Source: Rhodotorula mucilaginosa (taxonomy: Eukaryota; Basidiomycota; Microbotryomycetes; Sporidiobolales; Sporidiobolaceae). Taken from it: a stretch of DNA of 64,000 bases. The stretch is taken from positions 248,001 through 312,000 of the forward strand of contig CP137880.1 of the NCBI GenBank assembly GCA_034406715.1, given 5' to 3'. The position numbers and the translations under genes are program-made. Of the stretch, positions 10,257 to 34,303 are shown in pieces. Position 1 is the first letter of the stretch; each line of letters starts with the position of its first letter. The notes below the pieces were generated by a model that was given only the letters and a program-made list of their open reading frames with translations, was not told where the DNA came from and ran no database searches.

Positions 10257-13200
10257 ATGACCAGTCCAATCCGACCCGAGGTCCGCGCTGTACTCGAGCC
10301 TGTCGAGGGAACACCCCCGAGAACTCCAGATTGCACCGCTCAAACTGTGGACAGTCCCGAGTTTGTCGAATATCGCCGCCTTGCACAGCAACTGCTCGCC
10401 TTCGGAATTGTTATTCACGCGAGCACCTTACAGCGCGAGTCGATTGAATTGGCGCCCGCGAATGTATGACGGTGCTGATGGTTGCGGACCCTCTAGGTCT
10501 GCGCTTGTCGCTTGTGCATGAGACTGTTGCGCAGCTGGCGCTGTCGCTGCCTCTCAGTCGCGCTGAAGCAGAGTACATAGTCGGCCAGTGTCAGTGGACG
10601 GAAGATTGTGGGCCCTTGTCTCTGACGGGTCTCCTCGCGGGCGAGGACGACGTTGTCAACGAGCTTTGCGGTAAGTCGAGTTGGGGCATGACAGATGACT
10701 CTGCTTGTAGGAGATACTGATTCTCTCCGCTCACAGACCGTGTTGTGTACGGGCCGTGGTGGACAGAACTGGTCGAAGCAATGGGGGCTGGTACGTGGTA
10801 CTTGCTGCCAACCATCAAAAGATATGTGGGCTGATATTCTGCCTTGTTCTGCAGGGACTGCCCTCGTACAGCATGTCAAGAGTATCGGACAATCCCACAC
10901 CGCAGAGGCTCTGGCAGAGGCAACACAATCCCTAGACCCAACTTACTCGTTGTGGCCCGCCGGACTCACCTTGTCGGAGGCCTCAGACCTCTCTCCGCCG
11001 ATGTGATCCCCGTGTTGCACCCTGCAGACAGTAGTGACACCTGAGCTGACTTGTATCGGAACAACAGGCCAACACGGGCAACCGAATTGATCGAGCGGGC
11101 AAGAAGCCTGACCGTCCATGTGCAGCGTCCGTTCGTGCATGACAGTCCGAAGTTTGAATTCTTTGCAAATCCCGCGTACGTTTTATGCGGTATATTCATG
11201 AGCCCACGTGAGAGCATGCGCTGACGGTTGCTCTACAGCCCTCATGAACTCCGCGTTGTCGACCCGCTTCTCATTTGCGCCGTCGCTCATCGCCCTAAAC
11301 CCGATGTCCGCTTTTTCCCAGGGCGTGAATGGGCTGATGCTGTACTCAAGTCCATCAAGTGTATGCAAATCCTGTTGTCCTGGGTGAACACGCGACCTGA
11401 CCAGAGCTAGTGCCCGAAAACAGCGCACCCCAACGTCGCTCCTTCAGCTGACGACTCGACGCGCACCTTCATCGACACGCCCTCCGCGCAACTACCGCAG
11501 AAAAGTTTGCTCGTTGACATTTCAGTTGGACTGTGCATCATCCACGTCTGCTGGACACTACCCGACATGCGCCGCGAAAGTATGCGAATCGCTGTCGTGT
11601 TCCGCGAGCAGCAGGCGACGGCGTCGTTTTTCCTGCGCAGTCCTCTGACGCATCGGATTGCGATTGATCACGTCAACAGTACTGAGCGAGTTGCCGTGCT
11701 AAGACCAGCCAATGCAACAACGAAACTGACTCTCAACATGCCCTGCAAAGGCAGAGCCCGGTCGTCGTCTACCCGTACGGCGTTTTCAAGAAGAATTCCG
11801 ATCCGCTTCTGCAGATGGAGACAGAGACAGGCGAACAGTTCTTTGCTGCGGTCGGCCTCCCATCGAACTGCAAGTCGACAATATCCCTCGTCCGATGTTG
11901 GTCAAATACTGATGAGTTTCGAGGCAGTCGAATTGACGCAAGCACCCCCTGCGCCGAAACGACTTCACGCAACGGCTTCCGGCGATTACGTGCATCTGTC
12001 AGCCTACCAACCTGGTGGCTGGATCCGCTGCAGGGGGATCCCGCAGCGGCACCATGCCCCGCCACAGATAGACCTGGTTCCGTCCACTCTCGAACGGCGG
12101 CGGCGCCAGGTCCAAGCAGCAGCAGCCAAGCCCGGAGATCGAGCCCAGCCTTCTGGCCCGGGCCCGGCAGCCAAGCCTCGCGCGGCGAGCCAGTCGCCCG
12201 ACCGAAAGCGGCAGGCTTCGCAGCCTCGATCGGCACACTCGCCGAAAAGAACGCGCGCGAACCTGCCCACGAGTGCCTCGGCAGCTCCAGGAACCACGGC
12301 TGCAGCAGCCCAATCACTTCCCGCAGCTCAAGTTGACCAAGCCATCATAAGGCCGTACATGCAGAGTCTGTTTCCTGTGCTGCAACCGACTGCGAAAGCC
12401 ACCTCAACGGAACAGCCTCAAGGTGAGTCTCCTCCGCCTGGCTGCCCCTTGGCAAAGGCTAATAGCGTTGGTCCATGATGTGACACAGGAGACAAGTCGC
12501 AAGGTAAGTTACCTGCCTTCAAGTGCGTGATCACTGGAGCTGATGTTGGCCTTCTCGACAATAAAGATGCGCCCTCGGATTCGTCAGCATCCATGCAGGA
12601 CATTCCGAGTGGTGATACGGCCACAACTGGCATTGCCATGTTGCAGGGAGGCATCAAGCGGACCTCGACGCTGTCTGGCCCGCTGTACATTGCGGAGGTG
12701 ACGCCGGCCAGCGAGGCAAGCGGCAATGGTGACTGCTTTCCCGACTCGGTTGCCATCCTGGCCATGCAGTCTGGGAAGCAGTCAAGCCTGAGCTTGCGGC
12801 AGAAGCTCTGTGCACTGGTGCGGGAGGCGTACGGGGACTGGCAGCGGTACTACTACGGCGTCCCGAATTCGATCGAGCTCTCACCTGAAGCGAACGCAAC
12901 TCAAGAGGGTGTTATCATGTGGGCCAAGGCGCCGGATGGTTTCAAAGACCAGGTCCAGCTCAAAGGTTGGAACACCCCCGGTGCCAGGTTCGCGGGCTTC
13001 CTTGAGAACCAGAGCAAAGGAGGCCAATGGCTCAACGTCTCGGACGCGTTCTTCTTTGCCACGATCCTGGACCGGGACATCTTTGTCCTCGACACCGGGT
13101 TCCGCAACGGCGGAGCGAACCCGCAAATACACCTCTATCGCTCAGGCCGAGCCCGCCTGAGCCAGCAAGAGGTGGACACCCTCGTACGGGATGACGTCTT

Positions 13201-13492
13201 CATCGGAGCCGACCAGCAGGCTGAGCCAGGCCGGGCAATCCTCTGCTTCTACAATGGGCGCGACCATTTCGAGCCAAGCCTTGATCGTGTCATCCCGATG
13301 GATGCTGTTGCGCCAGACCCATTGACGTTAAAGACGATTCGTCGAGCGATGAAAACGTTGACCGTCAGGTCATTCCTGGGCACATGTCAGCGAGTGAACG
13401 AGGGCGAGGATCCGGATCGACATGCCTTTGAGCTCACACTGTCTGCTGAAAACCTCGAGGTGCTGGAGTCCCTCGGCAATGGTGACTTGTAG
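10257..13492 (+). CDS. Multi-exon protein with C-terminal OTU-type cysteine protease domain
   Basis: The last exon (about 12520-13492) carries an OTU deubiquitinase-like domain: ASGNGDCFPDSVAILA holds the Asp-Cys catalytic motif (GDCF) and ILCFYNGRDHFEPSL holds the catalytic His with an upstream Asn. OTU proteins remove ubiquitin or ubiquitin-like chains. The upstream exons are deduced from phase-matched splice sites: 10257-10463, 10535-10670, 10737-10790, 10855-11002, then about 11088-11180, 11240-11370, 11470-11690, 11755-12420. They encode a region of about 600 residues that I do not recognise, ending in a Pro/Ala/Gln-rich linker (12.1-12.4 kb). Exon joins at about 11.37-11.42 kb and 11.90-11.93 kb are uncertain. 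The start is the first ATG of an uninterrupted exon. It lies between an F-box gene and a PARP gene, so a ubiquitin-related role is plausible but inferred. Confidence 0.7.
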
Positions 13493-15111: not shown

Positions 15112-16803
15112 ATGCAGTTCGATCCGGCACTGTTCGACGTTGCTGAGGTGTACAGAAACGAGACGCTCAAGAGGACCATCTCAAGCGTCACAGTCAACAC
15201 CAACGACCTAGGGATTCCTCGAGCCCAGCTCCTTGCGTGGGAGCCCATGCTGAAAGAGTACCCAGATGCAAGGTTGACGATGCTGCTCGAGGAAGAGCAG
15301 GCAGGTGTCCACGCGCCACCGCGAGTCCGAGTCGGGCTCTCTCGAACACCAAGCATTCCGGGCGAAGCGGCGCGTGTTGCGTTTCTGTCTGGCATTGAGT
15401 GCTATACCGGTGAGCAGGTCAGTGAGGGAATGGAATCGAATCTGCTGACACAGTCAATGCAACAGCTGGCGCATTTGACTGCATGCGCCTTTCCTCGTTT
15501 CTTGAAGAGTCCATGTCGCGCAAACTTGATGACGGGCGAGAGACGCCCTCGGCAACAGAGGTAAGCTCATTGCATAAGTAAACTAATCCAGATCGGATGA
15601 GCGCTGCTGATATATGGTCTGTTTCAGTTGATGGTGATGCTGTGTCAGGCGTTTGCATCCGCGTCCAACACGTGCCCTGCCTGTTTCGAGACAGAACCAC
15701 GAGGTATCAGTCAAGCATACCCACCGGTGTGTAGCAAGTTGCAGTGTCAGAACGACCTGCCTGGTCTGGACCACCTACCACTCGAGGTGAACGGAACCAC
15801 TCCTGCGACGGTGTTCGGCAGGAAGTAAATTGACGCCCTCAGTTGCAAACAGTATGACATACTCCTTTCCAGTGAAAGCGTCAATCTCATGGTCGATCTG
15901 GCGTACATAGCCTCAAAGTCTCAGAATGTGGGCGGCGGTGAGATCCCTCCGGGCACGACCATCACTGTCAATATCGTCATGCCGGGCTTGTATGGTCCCG
16001 TCGACCAGACTATTGGCGTGACTCGGGAACACAAAGATCCGAGCATGAGATGTCGAGCTATCTACGACCTCCTCGCAACATGCCCAGTCTTCCGGCCAAT
16101 TGCCGTGTTGCCCGGGACGAGGTACCCGCCCAAGCGCAATGCGTGGTCGAACCTATCCCCAGACACAACTCTAGTCCGGGTTCTCCGTCACCTGATGTAC
16201 CGGTCAGGAACAACGGTGCGCGAGGTGACACGGGCAGACGAGCTCGTGACCGGCGTCCCGCAGCGGCTCCAGCAGTTTCGCGTGTTTGCGCATGCTCATT
16301 CTCTGGAGGACAATTATCCAGGTGCTCCCGCAACGAGGGGTCAGCCCTACCCAACACTCTTTGCCTTCCATGGGTCGGCCGTGGAGAATTGGCTATCAGT
16401 CTTGCATCGAGGCTTCACGCTCGAAAAGATTGCCAATGATCGATTCTACGGAGACGGAGTGTACACGAGCTTCGAGGGAGGGGTCTCGTTGTATGGGTAT
16501 TCCAAACTCAATCAAGTGCCTCCTCGCAGCGCAGCAGCAAACGGGATCCGCCGAGTTCTCGGGTTGACCCAAGTCATCACGAAGAACCTGCGACACACGG
16601 AGCCAGATATCCTGTGTAAGGATGTAGGAGAACTCCGGGTTGTGTACCTCCTGGTTGAGTATGAGGACGAAGGATTGGGGACGCCTGGCCCTGGTGACAA
16701 GGACGCGCGGGTCGAGACAGACTCATCCAAGCAGCGCATCTATCCAGGGGCGGTGTTGAACATGGGCTCAACTCGGGTAGAAATTCCACGATGGGATGTC
16801 TGA
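15112..16803 (+). CDS. PARP6/8-type ADP-ribosyltransferase
   Basis: Four exons with exactly matching phases (15112-15409, 15466-15560, 15628-15786, 15853-16803) give 500 residues. A Cys-rich module (CPACFETEP, then CSKLQCQ) sits mid-protein, as in PARP6/PARP8. The catalytic domain follows: FAFHGSAVENWLSVLHRGF has the His-Gly-Ser of the ADP-ribosyltransferase H-Y-x triad, and FYGDGVYTSFEGGVSLYGYS the tyrosine. The third triad position, near LRVVYLLVEY, shows no obvious Glu, which suggests mono- rather than poly-ADP-ribosylation. Some fungal members fuse this domain to a ubiquitin-conjugating-like domain; I cannot identify one here. Its N-terminus (LFDVAEVYRNETLKRT) resembles the start of such proteins, but upstream exons cannot be excluded. 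It is co-oriented with the OTU gene 1.6 kb upstream. Confidence 0.82.
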
Positions 16804-19639: not shown

Positions 19640-20270
19640 AGACACCGTCCAGATGACCCAAGTAAGCCAGGCCGTTCAGACGCTGTCCAGACTGATGAAT
19701 CCCTTTGGCACGGTTGCTGATCGGGCCGCTGGCGCCTTGGAAGGCCGCTCATCCAAGGAGATCTTCATCGAGCACTACCACTCAATGCTAGGACATCAGT
19801 CCGATCGAATCCTGCGACACTACATGCGTCAGCATTACTGGTGGCCAGAAATGGTGAAGGAAATCGAGGCTTACTGCCGAACTTGCGCATCCTGCCAAGC
19901 TAGCAAACCCGAACGAGCCGCACCGAGAGGAAAGCTACACCCTATCCAGCTCCCGTTCACAGCATACGAAGAGATTTCGATTGATTTCACCGGACCGCAC
20001 CCTGTCAGCATTGATGCGGACGGAATCGCGAGATTACATTTTCACCGTGATTGACGCCGCCTCCGGAGAAGTCAAGCTCATTCCGTGCATGAAGGCCGGT
20101 TTGACGAGCGCAAAATGCGCCCAAATCTTCCTCGAGAAAGTGTACCCGCAATGGGGTACTCCGAAGACGATCCTGTCGGACCAAGACGTCCGCTGGGTTT
20201 CCGCGTTCTGGAAAGCGTTCCACAACGCTCTCGGAACGACGCTGCACGTGTCAACCGGAGCGGCCCCTTG
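19640..20270 (+). mobile_element. Ty3/Gypsy LTR retrotransposon fragment (integrase), fossil
   Basis: Family: Ty3/Gypsy, Metaviridae-like pol. Parts seen: the zinc-binding HHCC head of integrase (HYHSMLGHQSDRILRHY ... CRTCASCQA) and the start of the DDE catalytic core (ISIDFTGPHPVS, then LSDQDVRWVSAFW). No gag, protease, reverse transcriptase, RNase H or convincing LTR is visible. The element is broken, with a small number of breaks, and only a piece of pol remains. The high protein similarity that survives suggests moderate rather than great age. It ends in a region with a nested palindrome at 20256-20332. Confidence 0.85.
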
Positions 20271-20332
20271 TCGAGTTGGCCGCCGCTCCGATTGGCCAAC
20301 TCGGCCGCTCCGGCCATCTCGACAGGGGATCC
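20256..20332. repeat. Nested palindrome next to the Gypsy fragment
   Basis: Ten-base arms CGAGTTGGCC (20272-20281) and GGCCAACTCG (20294-20303) are flanked by a second pair, CCGGAGCGGCC (20255-20265) and GGCCGCTCCGG (20303-20313), and by a near-match third pair (CCCCTTGTCGAG and CTCGACAGGGG). The whole could form a cruciform of about 77 bp. Confidence 0.7.
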
Positions 20333-20865
20333 GGAGCTTGTCCCGGCGGCCGCTGCGATGGCTCGATTCCATGCAGCTGATTTGTTCTACCGAGCGCATG
20401 CGAGAGATTTACAGTCGACCACCCTATACTACCGTGATCTTGTGGCGCGCAAGGGGCGCGGTGCTGCGCGCCGAAATCTGTATGGTATTCTCAAACTCAA
20501 ATGATCCGGATCGGCTGGCGCGGCTGCAAGAGGCCTCCACTTGATTGGTTGCCTCGAGAACTTGAAGTAGTCGCTAGATACGGTTGACTTAGCCGTTTAA
20601 ATACAAGCTATAGTCTCGCAAATAGCGATAGGGAGGAGAATAGCTAAGGACAGCTAGTGTCGGTAGAATTCGCCCGAGGGAGAAGAAGGAAGACAAAAGT
20701 CACGACGAGAACTACGCTCAGAGTGCGGAGACCGCGGGTACATGTGGGGGGACCGGGACAGGTACATAGTCACGATGGAGATCACAGAAAGGCCGTGCTT
20801 GTCGATCCAGATTCGAGAGGCGAGAGAGGGCAGGAAGTCGGAGGAGCGAAGGATGATCGCTTCGC
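20271..20865. other. Unassigned stretch, Gypsy fragment to minus-strand ORF
   Basis: Contains the palindrome and a frame reading MARFHAADLFYRAHARDLQ (about 20357-20413) that could be the remains of another gene. From 20550 to 20700 the sequence is AT-richer and could be old element flank. Nothing here can be named. Confidence 0.35.
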
Positions 20866-22016: not shown

Positions 22017-23438
22017 TAACATGTGCTGATGCAAAGACTACGATGTCGGCAAAAGGCGACCGACCAACTCGGACCTTGAGACTCGAACTGTGGGCCCGCT
22101 GCACTCAGACCTTGGGTGGGTCCGACCCAAGGTCTGAGTGACTGAGGGGCGGCTTTTGGCGGCATGCCTCGGTTGAGATCGAGATCGCAACAAGGGTTGC
22201 TCAGCACAGGCTTGTTCGCGGAGATGAACTGACTCCGAGTTGCACCACAGTGTAGTCGCCGATCGCGTGACGAAATGACGACCCCGACACCGCTGGTGAG
22301 AACGTTGTGCCAAAAAGTATCCGCGGGCTTTCGGTCGCTGTTTCGCCGAAGCAGTACGCCAATCTGACGCGCGTGATACCGCACTCGGTTGTTCCAAGTT
22401 GACGGGACAAGAGGCTCAGAATACAAGGCGGTATGGGTGGCAAGAGTCGCGGGAACGGGTGGGCGTGCGAGCCTCGAAGGCAAACTGCTGCACCAAGTCT
22501 GCACTGACTACGTCGGTACGAAGAGACGTGTCACGTACGGTCAAGAGGATGAGATCGAATTCAGGGGCGGCGGGGTATTGATCGATCACACGAGATCGAA
22601 AGGGAACCGTCTCGCGCTGACCCGGTTATCGTCGTTTCGAGGCTGGCCCAGAGCCGCGAGGCTATCCTGCTGGCGATGAATGGCTCATGCGCAGTCTCAA
22701 GACTGAACAAGGAGCCCGCAGTGCTGATCGACGCTCGACTCCGGCGAGCACAGAAGGGAAGCCGCTCGGACGCGGATGCCGCTCTCGCGTGCAACATCGC
22801 CACGACGCGCATCGTGATCGAACTGCGACCTTGGTCGAAGGGCGACTCCAGTCCTGACGTGCGACGGACAGGCGAACTTGCTCGAGCTCTCCCTCGTCGC
22901 AATGGCCTCCTGACTTAAAACGGCGTGCTGTCCTCGTGACCGACCGTCGATAAGAGGAGCAGATGGCATTGACGGAGCTAACCTCAAGCGCTCATCGCTG
23001 ACTGCGCGAGTGCGCCATTCTTTGCTACGCTTGCTCTGGAGCACGCGATAAGCTCACAAGCTGGCAGCGGGCCGAAATCAGAGCTTGAGCGCCAAAGAAC
23101 CCGCATGCGACGCTGCGAACGGAACACGCGGGTAATGAACTGCGACTTGCTTCATGCGTGACAGTCACCATAGCGACGCTTGGAGTGCCCGCTTGGAGGG
23201 GAAAAAGTCGCCGCGGACACCCCGCGAGTGGGCGGACGGGCGAAAGGACTTCTCCCTTTCTCGCTCTAACATTTGCCTTTACTGCAAACGCTTGAAGGAG
23301 ACCTCGCCTCGCACCAAAGCTTGCTCTAAGCGCTCATATCACCCATTTCCAACCCCGCCGGCTGCCTCCGCTCTCAACCTCCGACTCTCGAGGCGCACGA
23401 ACCCCTTCTCCCGTTGTCCCCTCGACGACAACCGCCGA
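22017..23438. other. Region upstream of the Fanzor-like gene
   Basis: No gene is supported. It contains the perfect hairpin at 22102-22140. The last 285 bp are open in frame with the Fanzor-like gene back to an ATG at 23154, so the true start of that gene could lie here. Confidence 0.45.
22102..22140. repeat. Perfect 16-bp inverted repeat with 7-nt loop
   Basis: CACTCAGACCTTGGGT (22102-22117) is the exact reverse complement of ACCCAAGGTCTGAGTG (22125-22140), separated by GGGTCCG. It is the longest perfect short-loop inverted repeat I noticed in the window and lies 1.3 kb upstream of the Fanzor-like gene. Confidence 0.9.
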
Positions 23439-26400
23439 ATGCTGCTGCCGCGCACGCAGCTCTTGCTTGCGCTCGCGGCTTCCATCGTACTCGCCTCGTT
23501 AACCGCCCGCCTCGCCAACTGGACGGGAACAGGAAAACAGCAGTCCTTCGGAGTCCGCGGAGCCGGCCTCGTGCACGGACCCTTGTGAGTACATTGAGCC
23601 AAGTTTTACCGCGCGGCAAAGGAAACTGATGCCTACAATCCACAACACAGCGACATGGGCCAGAAGACCCTCATGGCGCACTTGCGGGGCATCGCGCGCG
23701 AGCAGCTCCAGACGGCGCACGCGACGACCATGATGGAGACCGGGACCGGCATCAAGGCCACACTCGGGCTGGTCCCGAGGAGCTTTGGCGGAAGTGAGTT
23801 GGACAGCTGCTTACTCATAGCCAGCCTCGACTGACCAGTGGACCATCGGAACAGACGAGTATGTCGTTGTCCGCGACCTGAACCCCGTACGATTCCAGCT
23901 TCGCCAAGGGACGCTCCAGTCGGCGACGTGGGTGAGGGACAAGTCCGCCACGAACGTCGCCAACAACCTCGCAGCTGCCGAGCGAGCCAAGATCGAAGAG
24001 ATGGACCGCGAGATCCGCGAGGTCCTGGGCGCCGAGACCGTCATCATCAACATTGTCGACGGCGACAAGAGGCCGGAGGCAAAGGCAGCTACCCTCTCCG
24101 ACCGTCACCGTCGCTTCTCGCGGAGGCACCACCAGGAATCGAAGCTGCCCTGCGGGAAGAAGCGCGTCGAGCTCGAACAGACCCCGCCCAACGACTCGGA
24201 CTGGATCCACCGCGCTGTGAGTCCTTTGTCTGGTCCAGTCACACACATAACGGAGCGGGAGCTCACGCAAACTTTCAAAACAGGGCGACGAGAAGACGAT
24301 CTACTTTGTTGCGCCCGACGAAGCAGATCGCCTAGTACAGCATCTTGTGACGCAGTCGTTCGACACACCAAAGTACGACCTCCCCGCCAACTCTCCCTTC
24401 GCCAACAGCAACATCGATCGGCTCATCGACATCGTCAAGCGATACCCGCCGTGGCGTCGAATTATCCATACGCGCGACCTCGATGCAGTCATGCACACGA
24501 CGGCGTGCGAGGCATGGTTCGTCCTCCTCACCTCGTGGTCAAAAGTCGAGGAGGGGGCGGTCCTTACCTCGGACGCCACGGTACTCGAAGACATGCTCGA
24601 GCCGTACGTTGCCGAGGGAGCGCAGCGGCTGCATTCCGTCCAGCGCGATGTTTCTGCTGCCGCTCCCTCTGCACCAAGGACTGGCCGTGGCGGCGCCCTA
24701 GGCAAGAAGGCGCCGCTGCCAGCTCGTCCAAACCTCCCCGTGCTCTTGACTCAGCTCGGCGCACAGTCGGCATTCCGCCCAACATCCCTCGACAGATTGC
24801 CAACCGAACGACGCCGGGGCGATACAATCGTCGTCTTTCTCCCCGGCGTCGACGCTCTCCCAGGCTTCGGCAGAGATCAATGTCGCCGTGCGCGCGTGTC
24901 GAGCCTTCTGGGAAACGACTACACCGGCAGCGGCATCAAAGGCATCTCTTGGGCGCTCGTCTCGAGCGGTCTCGGCGAGTCTTTGCTTTCGATGAGGGAA
25001 GAGGACTGGTCCGACCCTCAAAAGCTCGAGTCGCAGGTCTCTTCCCTCGTCTCCCTCCTCGCCTCCACCGCCGCCAGAGCCAAGACGTGGCGGGCTGGAG
25101 GCGACTTTGGCGAGGTCGCCAAGATCTCGAGCAAGAGCACGTCGATCGGGCGCGAGCAGATCCTGGACCTGATCGAGTCGGTGCGCGTTATTCGAGGTGA
25201 GAACGTCAACTACGTCGCCTCGACGTTCTACCACAACGGCGATCCGCGCGGACCCCTGCAGTTCAAGCAAGCTCCGCCGTCGACTCGCCCAAATCGCTAC
25301 GACGTCGACTCCCGCCAGCCAAGCCATCCCTACCTCTCTCGCCCAGGTCCGCAACACGTCGTGCCACAAGGTCTGAACCAGTCGCCGACGCTGCCGACGA
25401 GCATCGTCAACCCACGCCTCTCGAACCCGCTACAACCGTCTCGGACGGTGCCCGCTCCGGGCGAGACCGATCCCTCCCGTCCAAAGATGTCGAAGATTCG
25501 TGTTCGGCCGCTGCAGATGGGAGGAAGCGGGCAGAGCGTGTTCATGGCTGCGCGAACGCATGGTCCCGAGCTCACTCCTCTCGACGACAAGACCATCGCG
25601 CGAATCATACAAGCAGACGCCAGCCTTCCTGTCGAGGTCAACGACGACGACGACGCGGTCGACTCGGAACTGGAGACTGTTCCCGAAGATGACGACGACG
25701 ACGACGACGAAGACGACTTCACAGCAGTGCCAAAGCAAAAAGGAAAGCTCAATCGTGTGGAGTCGTACTTTGCAACGATCACCTCGCCGGGCAAGAACCA
25801 TGCCGCCGCGAGTCGCAAGATCAGCGACATCACAGAGTCGCCCCGACCAGTCTCGACCGCTTCGGCTTCTGCCAACAATGCCGGCCGCAGCGGCGCACAA
25901 CAGACCGCCACGCGTATCACGCGTCTCACATCGGCAAGAGCTCCTCCGCCAGAACCGTCGAGGCGCAAAGATCGCGAACCAGTGCCCGCGCCCCGGCAGA
26001 CCCGACTCGCGGGGAATCCCGCGATCACCGAACAAGAGGCAGCTCTCGCATCGCCAGACCCGATGCTCCTCATCATGTCGCTCGCCGTCAAGCTCGGGAA
26101 TCGCTTTGTCCACAGTGCGTTTGCGTTCTTGCTGGAACTGCTGCTGGAACAGGGGGAGGCAGGGATGATGGCGACGAGGGATCTGCTACTCCAGCGGAAC
26201 CGAGCGGCGCAGTGCCTCGGTCGTCTTGCTGCTGGCGGAGCATACCGTGCGGCGGGGGAGCAGTGGTTCCCGCGGCAAACCCTTGTTATCTCTGAGCTGG
26301 AGAAGGTACGTCCGGTCATACGGTCAGAATCGAGATGGACAAGAGAACTGACTACAGTCTCTGAGCAGGAGGCCGTCAACTCGGCCCTCGCCTCCGGTCT

Positions 26401-29275
26401 CGTGCCTCCTCCTCGACTCTCGGTCAAGGCGTTCACAATAGCCTACGCTCCCTTCCAAACCAACCTGACCGAATGGCCGCGAACGCACACGCGAGACGAA
26501 CTCGTCAACTTGGGCCAGTTCGTCGCGCGCGACCTGTCCAAGAACGCAGCAGAAGCGCTGAGCAAAGTCCTGCGGAAGGCGCACAAGGCGTTCTCGCTCG
26601 ATCCGGCATCGGAGGCTGCCCTGCAGTCGGCAAACATCGAGGCTTCCGCTCGATTCCGCGCGGGCCTCGGGAACTGGTTGGGCGGGGTGCTCGCGACTGC
26701 TCCGTTCAGCCAGGCGTCGGCTCACGCAGGCGCCGCGAACGAAGAGGACAAGGGACTGCCGAGTCGAGAAAAGACCACGTCGTACAACTTGCGAAAGGGC
26801 ACGACCGGCAAGAGCGGCGACACGCTTCAGCAACAGCACGGCCTCGGCCCGAAGATCGACCCGACTGACCCGCGCGAACCCCCCGCTCTCGACCTCGGGA
26901 AAGAGACCGAAAAGTCGCTCGAGCAGATGATCAAAAAGCTCGTCGACTCGGTCCCGCCTGGCAGCATGTTCAATCGATCAGATATGCATGACGCGCTACT
27001 GCAAGACATCACCACGATCGCGCAGCGCCTTCTAGCATGCCGGGACCGGCATCTCGAGATGGCGCTGGTGCTGCTCAGATACAAGAAGATCGAGAACGCG
27101 ACGACCATGGCCTTCGACGACGTCCTTGCAGGGAAAATGCCAGAGATGGGGGCCGGAACGCTTGCCAAGGGGTTGCTAGCTCTGGTGATGAGACTGCGAC
27201 AGATGAGAACGCTATCGGGGATCGAGCTCATACCGGTGAGCTGACTGGCACGGCGGCGTCGAGCATAGTCAAAGGGAGACTGACTGGCTTGTCCTTTTGA
27301 CAGTATTTCGACCCGCAATGGGTCGATGTAGACCTGTACACCCTCCTCCAGTCCGGCCACCGGCACCGCTTCAAGGTGCTCTGCACAGATCTCGAAAGAA
27401 CCTGTACCAAGATCGCATGCGGCCTCCTCCCGTTCGTCGATGAAGACGAAGGGAGAAGAGTCGAGCTCTTTGACCTCTTCAGGCGGGTGTTCGAAGTGTG
27501 GCGGATTGACGAGGACGACCCCGACAACAGAGACAAGGACTCGCCTTGGTCCTGGATCGAGGCCGAGAGGACACGGTCGACGAGCATCCGCCTGGTCGTC
27601 AAGAAGGAGAGCGTGTCCCTCGTCGCCAACCTCGATCGGGTCCTGCGCATTGTGTTTGGCGTGGAGGAGACCTTCTACACCTACATGAGGCGGACCGGAG
27701 CTCAAGTCGAGGTGATGAACCAGCTCTTCGATCATCGAATGTTGCCGAACAAGTTCGTTCCCACCGGGCACATGCGCATGTCCTCAACAAAGGTCCAGTT
27801 CACCGGAGTCGACATTACGAAGATGACCAAACTTGGACGAGAGGCGCTGCCGGAGAAGAGTATGGCTGTCTGATGCCGAAAAGAATTGAGCTGCGCTGAC
27901 TCGCCCTACCCAGATCTCGACGCAGGAACCGCATGGGCGCACGTCTCACAACTACCGCTCACTCAACTGAAGGTCAAGGAGTACTTTGCCAAGATGATGC
28001 CGTCCTTTCAGCGTCGCGTCGTCAACGGCGAGATCGTGTTTGTACCGATCGTCGCCATCGCAAAACCCGACGCAGACGTGATGCTCTCGGAACGGCGCGA
28101 TCCATTGCCGCCCAGATCCGCTCCTCAGGAAGGGCTCTCGCGCAAAGAGCGACGGCGCGAGCGGCAGCGGCAAGACGCCCTGGACCGAGATCGCTCCCCG
28201 GTCGACCTCCGAACGCCGGTACGCGAGAAGGCGCCACCAAGTCGAACGCGAAAGGGGATACCGGTGTCTTGGCCAAACCTGCGATTCGAGGGGGGAAGGA
28301 AGTTGGTCAATGACTTTCTTGGAGACACCCCGCTCGACCACATCCACTCCGCCAGCATCGACACCGGCGTCGTCTGTCCAGTCGCGACCTTCATCTCGAA
28401 TCCGGTTCGGGACGGCTTACCAACGCAGCGTGCCGAGGCGGTGGCGACCTATTCGCGTGAGACTCTGCTCACCCAGCAGCGTCAGACCAGCCGCCAAGCT
28501 TCACACCTCAACTCGTATCTGTCGAACCAGTTCGACTTTACCCGATGGGCGGATCCAGCTTCCACAGATGTTCGAGCGTCGGGTACGTCGCCAATGCCAG
28601 AACCGGATCCGATGCAAGACCCTCTGCTGGTGACCGGTCTGCACTTGCTCAAGAGCATGCACTCGGTCTTCGACGGGCGGTCGATCCAGAGCAAGGTCGA
28701 GCGCAAGGTCGAGGTCAGTTCGGTGGCATCTCAGCACGTCGATCTGATATTGGGTGGCAAGGATCGCTGGACCGAAGAGGACCGCAAGACGCGCAAGGTC
28801 GTTGTCATGGTCGGCTCAGCGGACGATCTCGCGAAATCTTCCGGAATGAAGGGTGCTGTCACCGCCAACGTCCTTGTGCGGGAAATCTCTGCCGAGCTCG
28901 CGCGCCGCAGGGTCAACTTCATGATCTGCGTTGTTCCCGAGAACTACACATCCCAACGGTGCCCGAACCCGGACTGCGTCGATGCGCAGGGTCGCCGATC
29001 TCGGTACGTTTGCTCTCGTGTACTCTGAGGGTGATGCAGCTGACCGACTGGTGATCTTTGGGGACAGAGCGGAGAACCCGCGTCACCAGGGTGGAGGACC
29101 AAACTACCGTCTCCTCCAATGCCAGCGATGTAGGGCGGTCTTCCACCGGGACGGAGTCGGGGCTGCCAACATTGGGAGTATGGGGTGGTGCCTGCTGCGG
29201 AGTGGGTTGCAGCTGTGGGGGGAGAACTGGATGGGACCAGGAGGAAAAAAACTTGCGGAAGCGAAAAATCCCTAA
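23439..29275 (+). CDS. Giant Fanzor/TnpB-like RNA-guided nuclease-family protein
   Basis: Eight exons with matching phases (23439-23584, 23651-23793, 23855-24216, 24284-26305, 26369-27235, 27304-27859, 27914-29003, 29068-29275) give 1,797 residues without a stop. The C-terminal 430 or so residues carry the Fanzor/TnpB signature: RuvC-I Asp1515 in SASIDTGVVCPVATFIS; VVVMVGSADD ... GMKGAVTANVLVREIS; RuvC-II Glu1708 in the rearranged PENYTSQRCPNPDC; a Cys4 zinc ribbon (C1715-x4-C1720 ... C1747-x2-C1750); and RuvC-III Asp1757 in FHRDGVGAANIG. Family members cut DNA guided by an RNA made from the 3' flank. The N-terminal 1,300 or so residues are unrecognised, with an Asp-run near residue 685 and Ser/Pro/Arg-rich linkers; known Fanzors are generally much shorter. 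The ATG used gives a signal-peptide-like N-terminus (LLLALAASIVLASL), odd for a nuclease; an in-frame ATG at 23154 is an alternative. Confidence 0.85.
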
Positions 29276-29366
29276 AAAAGGGGGGATCAATGGGATCTAC
29301 TTGTAGAACCCTCGCTTTCTCCGTGATCAATCTGACTTCTATCTCCTGTGTGCGGTAACCACAAAC

Positions 29367-31393
29367 AGGCGCTTGCGCTTGCGCTTCCACGTCCGCAAAG
29401 AGGCGCTTGGCGCTTCTGCTCCCCTATGGCCCCGGCCTGCTTGAGACTCCGTGTGTGGACTCGCATGGTACAGATCGACGGGTCTGACCGTTGAGAATGC
29501 CGGACAACGCGCCGGCGCGTGCGACAGAGCGCCCGAAGCTTTGGAGCCGGATCGGGATTGCCGGATTTCTCCCCTCTCAACGGTGGAAAGGGCGTCTACA
29601 GATGCACATGTACCCCCTAGTCTGATCAAGCTTGCACCCCGCGGTTCTGCCGTATCCAACGGTCTGCGACGACGCTGGCACAAGGGCCTTTTTCGGCGAA
29701 AGAGGCGCTTCTCGCAACTCGCCGACGGTTCCCGCAGGGATGCTGGGTAACTCTGGGACGGTTGTAACCTTCAAATGGACTGTATCTACCGTTTTCAACA
29801 CCAGAATACGTTCGTGGGAGAGGCGGCGAGGCCGACGACTGCCCTGGCCGAGTCTTGGAGCACCCGCCCCGGCCTCTGCACGGTCGAAAATCCCAAAACT
29901 CTCCCTCATACGACCAAAAATCGTCACCGAGATGCTATGCTTGATGTACGGCCCCGCGCCGAGCTCTCCGGAACAGTCCGGGACCCAATTCCTGACTTTC
30001 TCGCCACTCAGTCTCAGTGTTCCAACTTCTAAGCGCATTGTGGGTCTGGTTACTTCTTTCATCTTGTTGACAGCATCAGAACTGACATGTACCATGTTGA
30101 CGGATTCCGTCGTATCTTCAGACCGAGCTGGCAAACATGATTCTGAGCCAGGAAAAGCCGGTGAGTTCAGTGTGATGAAGCCATGGCTTGTCCTGAACAG
30201 TTCTCTTTGTGAATGCATTCTTCTGAAATTTGCTGCTTACAGAGAAATGACTCGGCCGAGGGCCGGCAAGCGGTGAGCTCGAGACTTCCAAGCCGAAGAA
30301 GCGCCTGAGCCCTCTGCTCAACACTCTGCAGAGCCGAGCAAGGGCAGCGGACCGCATGCGATACCGAGAGCAGCATTGGGAGTTCTGAATGCGAGAGGTT
30401 TGAGAGCCCCTCAAAGGTTGTCTGAGGAGGAGGGAAGAGGAAGAGGGAGAGGTGGCAAAGCCGGCTTGCTCCTTTTTGATACGCGAGCGAGGTGCAGCGA
30501 CCGCGGTGTCTCTTACTCTTGCGACACTGCCCACGGGCCGCTTTTCGAGAAAGGTGTTCCGGCGGCGGCCGGCCTTAACAAAACCAAATCCAGGACGCGC
30601 GAGAACGCTCAAGTCGAGACAAGGAGACGCTCTCATGCGCGAGGGCACTGACCTTGACGGGATCCCAGCCCTTTGAATGCGCTACAAAGAGTGTGTTTCC
30701 CAGTGTCCAGCCAAGCAAACCCGCGGCTGCAGCTGCGAGGTGCGCAAGTTCAGGAGAAGGTGCGCAAGTTCAGGAGATTCCAAGACGTGACCTCCCGTTG
30801 TTCACTCGTTCGCACGCGTCCACCAGGTTATTGTATCTGCAATTTTAGCTCGACGGAGCGAAGCCCTGCTCATGTATTTGACTATGGAGCATTTGACTGT
30901 GCTGCATTGCCCACATTCTTGCAGACACGGGCAAGTCAGAGAAGAAGAAACCGAGCGCGAGTTGCGCCACCCGCAAATACCCTCCGGACTGAACCGCTGA
31001 AGGGCCGACGACCTGTCCCTGACCAGTAGAAGTGTCGGGATCCCTTGACTTACGACCAGCAGGTCTTGCATGTCGCCCAGAATCGTCAAAACTGATTCCT
31101 CCTGGTTGCGCTCAAAAGCCGGATGGTCAGGCCGTGTAGACCCAAATCGCCTGAAACTTCGCACCCTGGGCCCCTATAGGTCAAAGTCCAGCCGGCCACA
31201 AGCTCAGCCCATTTCAACGGCGGTAGAGGTCTGCCGAGCGAGGCGCTTGTGGGAAATTGGACTAGAGCTGTAAGCCTTGTCGTGCAGCATATCGACAATC
31301 TGAACGGTCAAAATAATCGTGAAGGTGTTTGAAGCTGTTCAGGCGAAAAAGATATCCATAGAGCGCATGCTTGCTGAGATCAGGCAAGCGCCT
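29367..31393. repeat. Cluster of AGGCGCTT motifs in both orientations
   Basis: AGGCGCTT occurs at 29367-29374, 29401-29408, 29703-29710 and 31241-31248, and inverted at 30299-30306 and 31386-31393. Two copies share the longer AAAGAGGCGCTT (29397-29408, 29699-29710). Elsewhere in the window I noticed only isolated copies (about 663 and 36077). Confidence 0.5.
30738..30777 (+). repeat. Perfect 20-bp tandem duplication
   Basis: AGGTGCGCAAGTTCAGGAGA at 30738-30757 is repeated exactly at 30758-30777. Confidence 0.95.
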
Positions 31394-31595
31394 CTTAGTT
31401 GTAATTACCGTCGTGCGTGCCAGTTCCGACCCAGCCTGGCTCACCAGCTCGAGATACATGCTGGATCGCTGACCCTTGTGCTCCGCCCCCCTCCAGAATC
31501 TTCTTCTTCGGTATGTCTGCAGCGGAGTCTGAAGTCCTCGACGCGAAGTTGCCAAGTCCCCCAAGATGAAAATTAACGTTCTTTTGTTCGTGCAG

Positions 31596-34303
31596 GATAT
31601 GATCAAGGAATGATGGGCGGCGTCAACGGCGCTCTTGACTACGTGACCACGATGGGACTGGGATACGTCACGCCGGGCGTAGATGGGGCCAAGCCGACCG
31701 CCACCGTCACGCAGTCGACGAAGCAGGTGAGTCGTCGGCAACGCATCTATCTTGTTTTTGTCCCGCCGGCCACGATACCTTTACTGAACTGCTGTTTGCA
31801 TACAGGGAGGAATCGTCTCGGCCTACTGTACGTCCCGATCGTGTCTCCTTCCCGTTTTCAACCTGACACCGGTTTCTCTCCAGACCTCGGAACTCTTTTG
31901 GGATGCTTGCTCGGCGGGTGGCTCGGCGATAGGCTCGGTCGCAAGAAGACCATCTGGATTGGGTGCATTTGGATCACTATCGGAGCTCCCTTGCAGGTGA
32001 GTCGGAGTTCACTCTTGCCACCGTTCCGAAAGCCGCGATTTCACTTTCGCCACCGTTCCGAAATGAACTCCCGCCACCGCTCCGGAAGCTGGCGCTGACC
32101 TCCCTCTCTCTCCGACAGGCAGCTGCACAGAACGTCCCCTGGATGGTCATGGCGCGGATCATCACCGGAGTCGGCACGGGCCACCTCAACGCGATCGTCC
32201 CAGTCTGGTCCGCCGAAACTTCCGGTCATCTCTCTCGCGGGTTCTTCATTGCGCTTGAATTCACGCTCAACATATTCGGCGTGGTCGGTCTATGGTTATT
32301 CATTCGTCTTCTGACCCGCGTCCTCGTGGCTGACGAAGTTGATTCACCGCCGCCCCAGGTTGTCGCATACTGGCTCGGTTCGTTTCTCCCGCGTCTATTG
32401 CCGAAGGAGACGGCGCTGAGTGAACGCGTCATACAGAGTATGGACTGTCCTTCATCGGCGACGGGAACACCCAGATCCGCTGGCGGTTCCCAATCGCGTT
32501 CCAGCTCGTGTAAGTTTCGCTTACCCGACCGTCGCAGCAGATCAGACATACTGATGTACGCCGGCTCTATAGACCTCTTCTCGGCCTCGCAATCTGCACC
32601 TTCTTCATGCCCGGTACGCATTTCGCCTTTTTCCGGAGCGGACTTCCTCGCTGACTCTCCCGACAATTGCAGAATCGCCTCGATGGCTCCTCAAGGCAGG
32701 GTATCGCGACGAGGCGCTGCATGTCCTCACTCGCTTGCGCTCCGAAGACGGTCAGATCAACGCGGAAGCCCAGGCCGAATTTGACGAGATCGACCGAGCG
32801 ATTCAAATCGACGGTGCGGCAGAACCCGGCTACATCGACATGACATTCCGCTCGCACGGCAAGCTGCATCTGTCACGAAGGGTACGTCAGATTGGCAAAC
32901 AGCGATGAAAGCTCCGACTGACCGAATCGCTGTTACCAACAGACTCAGCTCGCGATGTGAGATCAATTTGTCTCCTGCTTTCCGTTCCTCGCGCTGACCT
33001 TTTCTCTCGTTCTCAGCTGGATCCAGATCCTTCAAGAGTGGGGCGGTATCGCCGCTATCACGGGTGAGTTCCTTATCGGGCTGGTCGGACGAGAAAAGCG
33101 CCTGACGATTCTTTTCCCTTCAGTCTACCAACCGGTCATCTTCGGTCTCGCCGGCTTCGACGCTTCGAAGGCAGGCTGGGTATCGGGAGTCAACACGATC
33201 ACCTACATGTTTTCTACGTGAGTATTCACCTTCTCCTTGCCACTTGGCGAGACGTGGTCGCTGCAACTGAGTCGATTTTCTTTTGCAGTCTTATCTGCGT
33301 CTTCACTCTCGACCGTATCGGTCGCCGTGTCACGCTCTTCTGGGGTACGTTCCACTTGGTCTTTTCTTTCTTCGGCTTGCTCTTGAAGCGATCACTGACG
33401 AAACATGACCATGCGCAGGCGGCGCGGTTCAGGCTTTCGCGCTCATCATGGCGGGCGTCTTCGTCCACCTTCTCACCGTTCACCCCGAAAAGACGGCTCA
33501 GTACGGAGGTGCTGCTACCGCTATGGTGTTCCTTGTGCGTCAAGAAATGTTGTCTCACTGTCACAGACTCGGAATTTGCTGACCGGGTCTTTCTTCTCCA
33601 GTACACCGCAACTTTCGGCGCAACTTGTGAGAAGTCTCGCCGCTTCTTCTTTGAGCGAAATGAACCTGACCTTTGTTTCACTACTTCTTACCGAAAGGGC
33701 TCACCGTACCCTGGATCTACCCCGTGAGTGGCGATGCCTTCCGCCAAGCGTAGTCTTCACATTGCTGACGCCACTCGTCTTCAGGCCGAAATCTGGCCCG
33801 TCAACGCACGAGCGAAAGGAAACGCTATGGGAGTCGTCGGATGGTCGATCGGTAACGGATGGTGCACCCTCCTGGTCCCCGTCATGTTCGACAAGATTAA
33901 GGAGGTCAGTCCCGGTTTTTTTGCCGTCCGTCGTCTTCGCTCTGCCTCAGGTATGCTGACTGCCTGCGGTCTACAGAATGCCCTCTACATCTTCGGCATT
34001 GCTAATATTCTCGCTATCGCTGTCGTGTGGGCATTCTACCCCGAGACCGCGAACCGCACTCTCGAAGGTGCGCTCGTCCGTTCCTCTTCCAAACGCTCGC
34101 AACCCCTTCTGACTTTCGAGCCTTGCCGTCTTCACACAGAGATCGACTTCCTTTTCTTCAGCGACAGCTGGTTCGTGTGGCACGCCGAGGCAGAGTACTC
34201 GCGCCTCAAGAAGGAACTCGAGGTCACCGGCGAGGTCCCGGACGATCTCAAGACGTCGACCCACCTCAAGGAGAAGATCAGCCTCGACAGCGCCGCGGCT
34301 TGA
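31596..34303 (+). CDS. MFS sugar transporter (sugar porter family), 5' end unresolved
   Basis: A 12-TM sugar:H+ symporter-type protein split by about a dozen short introns. Hallmarks in order: GYDQGMMGGVNGALDY (TM1 end, about 31.6 kb), GGWLGDRLGRKKTIWIG (about 31.93 kb), MARIITGVGTGHLNAIVPVW (about 32.15 kb), PESPRWLLKAGYRDEALHVL (about 32.68 kb), FTLDRIGRRVTLFWG (about 33.31 kb), PWIYP joined to AEIWPVNARAKGNAMG (about 33.8 kb) and PETANRTLEE near the end. The C-terminal cytoplasmic tail ends at TGA 34301-34303. The first half of TM1 must lie upstream: GKRLLVVITVV at about 31384 and a possible 14-nt micro-exon reading IFFFG near 31500 look right, but no canonical donor joins them in frame. 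So the start is unknown and damage at the island border is possible. The substrate (hexose, pentose or other) cannot be told. Confidence 0.9.

Follow-up and report, generated by a model that had tools for sequence, protein, structure and literature searches.

The stretch analysed here, hereafter the window, is a 64,000-nucleotide segment of Rhodotorula mucilaginosa contig CP137880.1 (assembly GCA_034406715.1, positions 248,001 to 312,000). It contains an eight-exon gene whose C-terminal part resembles the nucleases called Fanzors, the eukaryotic relatives of CRISPR Cas12 enzymes. A preliminary description of this DNA had proposed an apparently intact, giant Fanzor-like nuclease gene of about 1,797 residues, with eight exons joined in phase. 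A scripted rebuild of the model at 23439..29275 of the forward strand reproduced it to the residue, giving a product of 1,797 aa with a single terminal stop. All seven introns are GT..AG and 54 to 68 nt long, the phase is kept at every junction, and a CTRAY branch-point-like motif was found in six of them. Intron 4, which precedes exon 5, measures 63 nt and is in frame and stop-free, so that a single open frame of 997 aa in the DNA takes in both exon 4 and exon 5. The coordinates are collected in Table 1.

Table 1 Exons and motifs of the putative nuclease gene and the element next to it (positions in the window)
Feature	Position	Strand	Coding score (bits)	Remarks
Exon 1	23439..23584	+	9	hydrophobic, leader-like N-terminus; uncertain start; alternative Met in exon 2 at 23655
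Exon 2	23651..23793	+	15	one reverse frame scores equally
Exon 3	23855..24216	+		no Pfam family
Exon 4	24284..26305	+		residues 218-891; no family above cut-off; single copy
Low-complexity, acidic stretch within exon 4	near 25626-25718	+		seen in the sequence
Exon 5	26369..27235	+		residues 892-1180; no family above cut-off; single copy
Exon 6	27304..27859	+		no family above cut-off
Exon 7	27914..29003	+	-1	RuvC segment with D1515, E1708, C1715 and C1720; single copy
Codon of D1515 in SIDTGVV (RuvC-I, DTG)	28360..28362	+		invariant in 38 aligned rows
Codon of E1708, displaced catalytic Glu	28939..28941	+		six residues between E1708 and the first Cys; invariant in 38 rows
C1715-PNPD-C1720 (C-x4-C), first zinc-ribbon half	28960..28977	+		C1715 invariant in both TnpB alignments
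Exon 8	29068..29275	+	-28	second zinc-ribbon half C1747-QR-C1750, HRDGVGAANIG, C-terminus, stop
Codon of D1757 (RD motif, third catalytic acid)	29150..29152	+		invariant in 7 aligned rows
Non-autonomous MULE-like element	29353..31410	.		neighbour; begins 77 bases past the stop codon, outside the gene

Codon usage was trained on five open reading frames of the Tra1 region. By this measure the modelled frame was the top one of six in seven of the eight exons, exon 2 being the tie, and the coding signal ran unbroken across exons 3 to 6. The start codon is uncertain because exons 1, 2 and 8 are short and weakly scored, and the negative scores of exons 7 and 8 point to host-atypical codons at the end of the gene. 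As far as the sequence can tell the model is sound, and all eight exons would presumably be joined in one transcript. The 20.35-Mb assembly has one copy each of exons 4, 5 and 7. A passage of PMC10711439 gives Fanzor1 sizes of up to about 800 residues, a figure that is descriptive rather than defining, and the product is thus far longer than most described Fanzors, as had been claimed.

In the rebuilt product the first catalytic aspartate, the displaced glutamate, the Cys4 ribbon and the last aspartate all stand where they had been placed. E1708 occupies the position of the displaced Glu (Ealt) of Fanzors, six residues ahead of the ribbon Cys C1715. Residues 1366-1797 were shuffled 100,000 times, and the full motif (D.G, the displaced E, [TS][TS], the four cysteines and the final D) never appeared. 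The superfamily motif of Bao and Jurka 2013 (PMC3627910), given in the section consulted as D-X(125,275)-[TS][TS]xx-C4-X(5,50)-RD, is also present, and its loose form arose in one of 100,000 shuffles. When the region was aligned with 37 TnpB rows, D1515, G1517, G1666, E1708 and C1715 were invariant. A second alignment, with six TnpBs and including exon 8, kept the D, both glycines, the E, YTS, C1715, C1747, C1750 and RD; C1720 falls out of register, as the CxxC of TnpB is C-x4-C here.

Profile searches for a Fanzor or TnpB had been proposed as a check in the preliminary description. The Pfam profile of the Cas12f1-like TNB domain (PF07282) matched residues 1705-1764 with 31 bits, above its cut-off of 26.3, and the NCBIfam model guided_TnpB, whose cut-off is 100, gave no more than 24.3 bits. 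A hidden Markov model (HMM) of 32 displaced-Glu TnpBs, a set collected with patterns drawn partly from this protein, gave residues 1366-1797 a score of 33.7 bits, and none of 2,000 shuffles exceeded 5.5. Another profile (alignment A1) was too narrow, reaching 5.1 bits where the highest of as many shuffles had 1.9. Furthermore, when a profile of the zinc ribbon plus one TnpB was compared with PDB sequences, the best of the 20 found at E up to 10 was Fanzor1 of Guillardia theta (GtFz1), with an E value of 3.8e-6. Tau (0.031) and a ribosomal protein (0.21) came next, which we regard as chance matches, and the TnpB and Cas12f entries did no better than 0.29. Among the PDB matches listed, GtFz1 is the closest solved relative of the TNB, with an identity of 48% (25 identical residues), 50% or 40-44% depending on the alignment; with broader profiles it ranked under many TnpBs and Cas12 enzymes.

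The long N-terminus had been said to match nothing known, and this agrees with the libraries tried: exons 3 to 6 had no match above cut-off in Pfam or NCBIfam, residues 1-217 (exons 1 to 3) matched no family of either library, and neither exons 4 to 6 in PADLOC nor exons 4 and 5 in the PDB sequences found a match. A Metal_resist match in this part (E 0.02, 15.5 bits where the cut-off is 29.2) and NCBIfam matches at E 0.037-0.1, far under their cut-offs, were rejected as being at chance level. That the region lacks an explanation does not make it new.

Just downstream of the gene lies a MULE-like element with CGGTAA termini, whose copy in the window has a 9-bp target duplication matching at seven of nine positions. 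The 3' flank from 29353 recurs on another contig (C9), where a longer relative (C9:737359-744839) carries long open frames and a target duplication of 9 bp that is perfect. Since the gene lies outside this element, the element gives no evidence that the gene is transposon cargo. Across the assembly PF07282 found only exon 8 of this same gene, with 17.6 bits, below the cut-off, and no Rfam family reached its gathering score within the window.

Taken together, the locus is probably a fungal gene, single copy and interrupted by introns, whose product is a Fanzor1-like protein with an added N-terminus. Kinship with the family is well supported by the TNB and by the order of the motifs. Residues from about 1,300 to 1,797 would form the nuclease, a RuvC domain followed by the Cys4 TNB zinc ribbon, and D1515, E1708 and D1757 would bind metal in the RuvC domain. 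By analogy with characterised Fanzors, the protein is predicted to cut DNA at sites chosen by a bound guide RNA. The N-terminal 1,180 to 1,300 residues would be an added, partly low-complexity region; as no catalytic domain is recognisable in it, a role in partner binding or localisation is the most likely one.

Several results weigh against this interpretation. The Fanzor fingerprint described in part of PMC10711439 joins the displaced Glu to DPG at RuvC-I, Fanzors being near exclusively DPG, and residues 1515-1517 read DTG. The exact spacing expression published there, in its D{P}G form, is also unmatched, the departures being 190 residues from D.G to E, the C-x4-C and a longer loop. Strict membership of the Fanzors is therefore questionable, and it is not well supported, with DPG failing and the size outside the stated range. 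What stood of the proposed Fanzor-like nuclease is the kinship, seen in the catalytic residues, the displaced Glu, the ribbon, the TNB profile and the GtFz1 match. A similar TnpB profile matched significantly in the TNB, with RuvC-I alone at -3.2 bits. A profile of the REC and WED regions, from 88 TnpB N-terminal parts, failed to recognise them in residues 1181-1530 (0.8 bits; best of 2,000 shuffles 4.7). AlphaFold2 gave no confident fold: exon 7 alone reached a pLDDT (predicted local distance difference test) of 36, and with 37 aligned rows the values were 56 for pLDDT and 0.27 for pTM (predicted template modelling score). The latter model has a strand-helix-strand before E1708 and no ordered strand at D1515, and Foldseek and VIA searches with these low-confidence models showed no Fanzor, TnpB or Cas12 match. 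These models speak neither for nor against a RuvC fold, which the C-terminal part may adopt. No transposon ends were found around the gene, and at 29150-29350 the RNA fold was ordinary (z -0.06), with no signal of a guide RNA. A search of the PDB with the single sequence had no Fanzor or TnpB among its matches, and the solved Fanzor1s SpuFz1 and PpFz1 were absent among the matches listed, also among those of the broader profiles (the best 60 of 89 and the best 60 of 68). Finally, none of 7,999 scored candidates reached E up to 10 when the whole protein was compared with 5.8 billion proteins; this is weak evidence, the share of fungal proteins in that collection being uncontrolled (one match of a later search cites UniRef and nr as sources). 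The C-terminal region likewise had none among 2,688 candidates of a protein search. Close relatives of exon 7 were neither confirmed in viral_contigs nor found in plasmids. In a search of viral_contigs for giant-virus Fanzors, two W-(N/H)-RD patterns had no match and a fragment of L79 (PDB 9B0L) had no confirmed one; an earlier pattern had found 16 stretches there, four with TnpB frames and 12 with a recurring unrelated frame of 32 or 35 aa.

Because RuvC-I reads DTG, we compared three TnpB/Fanzor groups: the 32 displaced-Glu TnpBs, mostly DLG, DIG or DMG (L036, for instance, has DLG), 13 rows of pro-Fanzors and L79, and 16 canonical TnpBs. We use pro-Fanzor as our own label for cyanobacterial TnpBs with DPG and a displaced Glu, and we take L79 to be of mimivirus origin. 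The stretch from DPG to the TNB lay in one frame at 13 of 30 pro-Fanzor loci, and the other 17 were dropped; after removal of near-copies, and with L124 and L79 included, 13 rows remain, at least one of which (L145) has a Gln at the place of the displaced Glu. L124 itself, from a cyanobacterium (genome G003, same record as L058), is a 577-aa frame encoding a TnpB with DPG and displaced Glu, and a search of 292 genomes turned up related places in 22 of them (E up to 1e-20).

These groups bear on a different origin, an independent eukaryotic capture of a bacterial displaced-Glu, mostly non-DPG TnpB, later fused to host sequence, which would work like a Fanzor from outside the Fanzor lineage. Mean TNB identity was 45% (33-50%) to the displaced-Glu TnpBs, 29% to the pro-Fanzors and L79, and 31% (up to 43%) to the canonical TnpBs, and the HMM scores ran the same way, with the 33.7 bits of the first group against 7.9 and 22.2. 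YTSQ-CP and HRDGVGA-NI are common to several displaced-Glu TnpBs, and DTG differs from the DPG of Fanzors. A capture first looked likely from the 33.7-bit score, and was then weakened by GtFz1, a proven Fanzor1 with the same pattern: its own group scores are 29.7, 15.8 and 20.8 bits, in the same order as 44.5, 20.8 and 33.1 for this protein, and its closeness in the TNB (40-44%) is comparable to that of the closest TnpB (46%). As GtFz1 shows the same preference, the pattern, which on the Fanzor1 side is a comparison with the TNB of this one protein, can not separate Fanzor1 from displaced-Glu TnpBs. The TnpB set is moreover biased, since it was recruited with the help of this sequence, and its 32 rows include two with the label DPG. 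In the trees the protein sits on a very long branch, and its grouping with the pro-Fanzors was not rejected by the approximately unbiased test (p-AU 0.152, 0.098 and 0.177 in three trees; several pro-Fanzor rows were cut at a later D.G in the second, and the third was rebuilt with DPG rows). A capture of this kind appears unlikely, and a Fanzor1-like protein is the best reading.

The length of the product could also be explained by two adjacent genes: exons 1-4 or 1-5 would belong to a host gene, and the remaining ones (5-8 or 6-8) to a Fanzor whose size, about 620-900 aa, is ordinary. Such a second product would come near the Fanzor1 size of up to about 800 residues given in the passage of PMC10711439, and the low-complexity stretch in exon 4 divides both parts. 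Actually, exons 4 and 5 make one open frame even if intron 4 is retained, the phase is kept at all junctions and the coding signal runs on through exons 3 to 6, all of which make a pair of genes unlikely. That the frame persists in a captured or decaying copy whose nuclease is inactive or unexpressed is very improbable, with seven splice junctions, 1,797 codons and every catalytic residue intact, in spite of a pocket that holds a weak integrase match, sugar-transporter pieces and the MULE-like element, and of codon scores of -1 (exon 7) and -28 bits (exon 8) that are still the best of six frames.

Elsewhere in the window, positions 1-1848 hold part of the Tra1 gene (PF20206, 470 bits), a conserved neighbour. 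An open frame at 12479-13489 had no Pfam match at E up to 0.01; judged by eye, it has a likeness to OTU-type cysteine proteases. Another open frame, at 15829-16800, matches the PARP catalytic domain weakly (24.9 bits, cut-off 26.7), and 19858-20541 gives a weak retroelement integrase match (PF00665, 22.4 bits, cut-off 32.6), probably a remnant. There is a near-perfect hairpin with 19-nt arms at 22102-22140, and the 67-bp stretch around it recurs at C17:244834-244896. The sugar-transporter pieces at 31933-34300 lie in separate frames (PF00083, 20.7 and 23.7 bits, cut-off 22.3) and may be what is left of a broken gene, or else a gene interrupted by introns.

Both Fanzor types are reported in fungi in a part of PMC10432273, so that a Fanzor in a fungus is in itself no novelty; in the open-licence PMC literature we found no report of a Fanzor in Rhodotorula or basidiomycetes, or of a TnpB in Rhodotorula. 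Going beyond the Fanzor1-like gene that we favour, one could speculate, with considerable doubt, that this is a host-owned (domesticated), single-copy giant fungal Fanzor, free of a transposon, in which new N-terminal domains recruit partners or add an activity, and whose DTG marks a branch outside the DPG Fanzors. If true, an intact, intron-rich copy, single where tested and more than twice as long as the longest Fanzor1s stated in the passage of PMC10711439, would be a natural case of host use of a Fanzor and a case for accessory domains on an RNA-guided nuclease. The DTG site also puts to the test the claim that almost all Fanzors carry DPG.

Among known systems, the displaced-Glu TnpBs (e.g. 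L036, L038 and L075) share with this protein D.G, G1666, the E, YT, three of the four ribbon cysteines and RD, all in register, and their TNB is up to 50% identical. They differ in being about 360-470 aa long, intronless and bacterial or from phages, with a shorter ribbon loop and CxxC instead of C-x4-C. In the pro-Fanzors and L79 the motif order is identical and nearly every row has the displaced Glu; in contrast, they carry DPG and mostly YTSKTC, and their TNB is on average 29% identical. For the solved Fanzor1 structures SpuFz1 and PpFz1 the likeness lies in the triad of D, displaced E and D that PMC11423790 describes for Fanzors. The likeness to GtFz1 (PDB 9CER, 9CES and 9CET) is seen in the TNB and includes the displaced Glu in VPE-YTSQ-CP, a long TNB insert and GA-NI after the third catalytic position. 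That position is Asn in GtFz1 according to the same part of PMC11423790 and Asp in this protein, and the GtFz1 construct has 1,100 aa including MBP, compared with the 1,797 aa of the Rhodotorula product.

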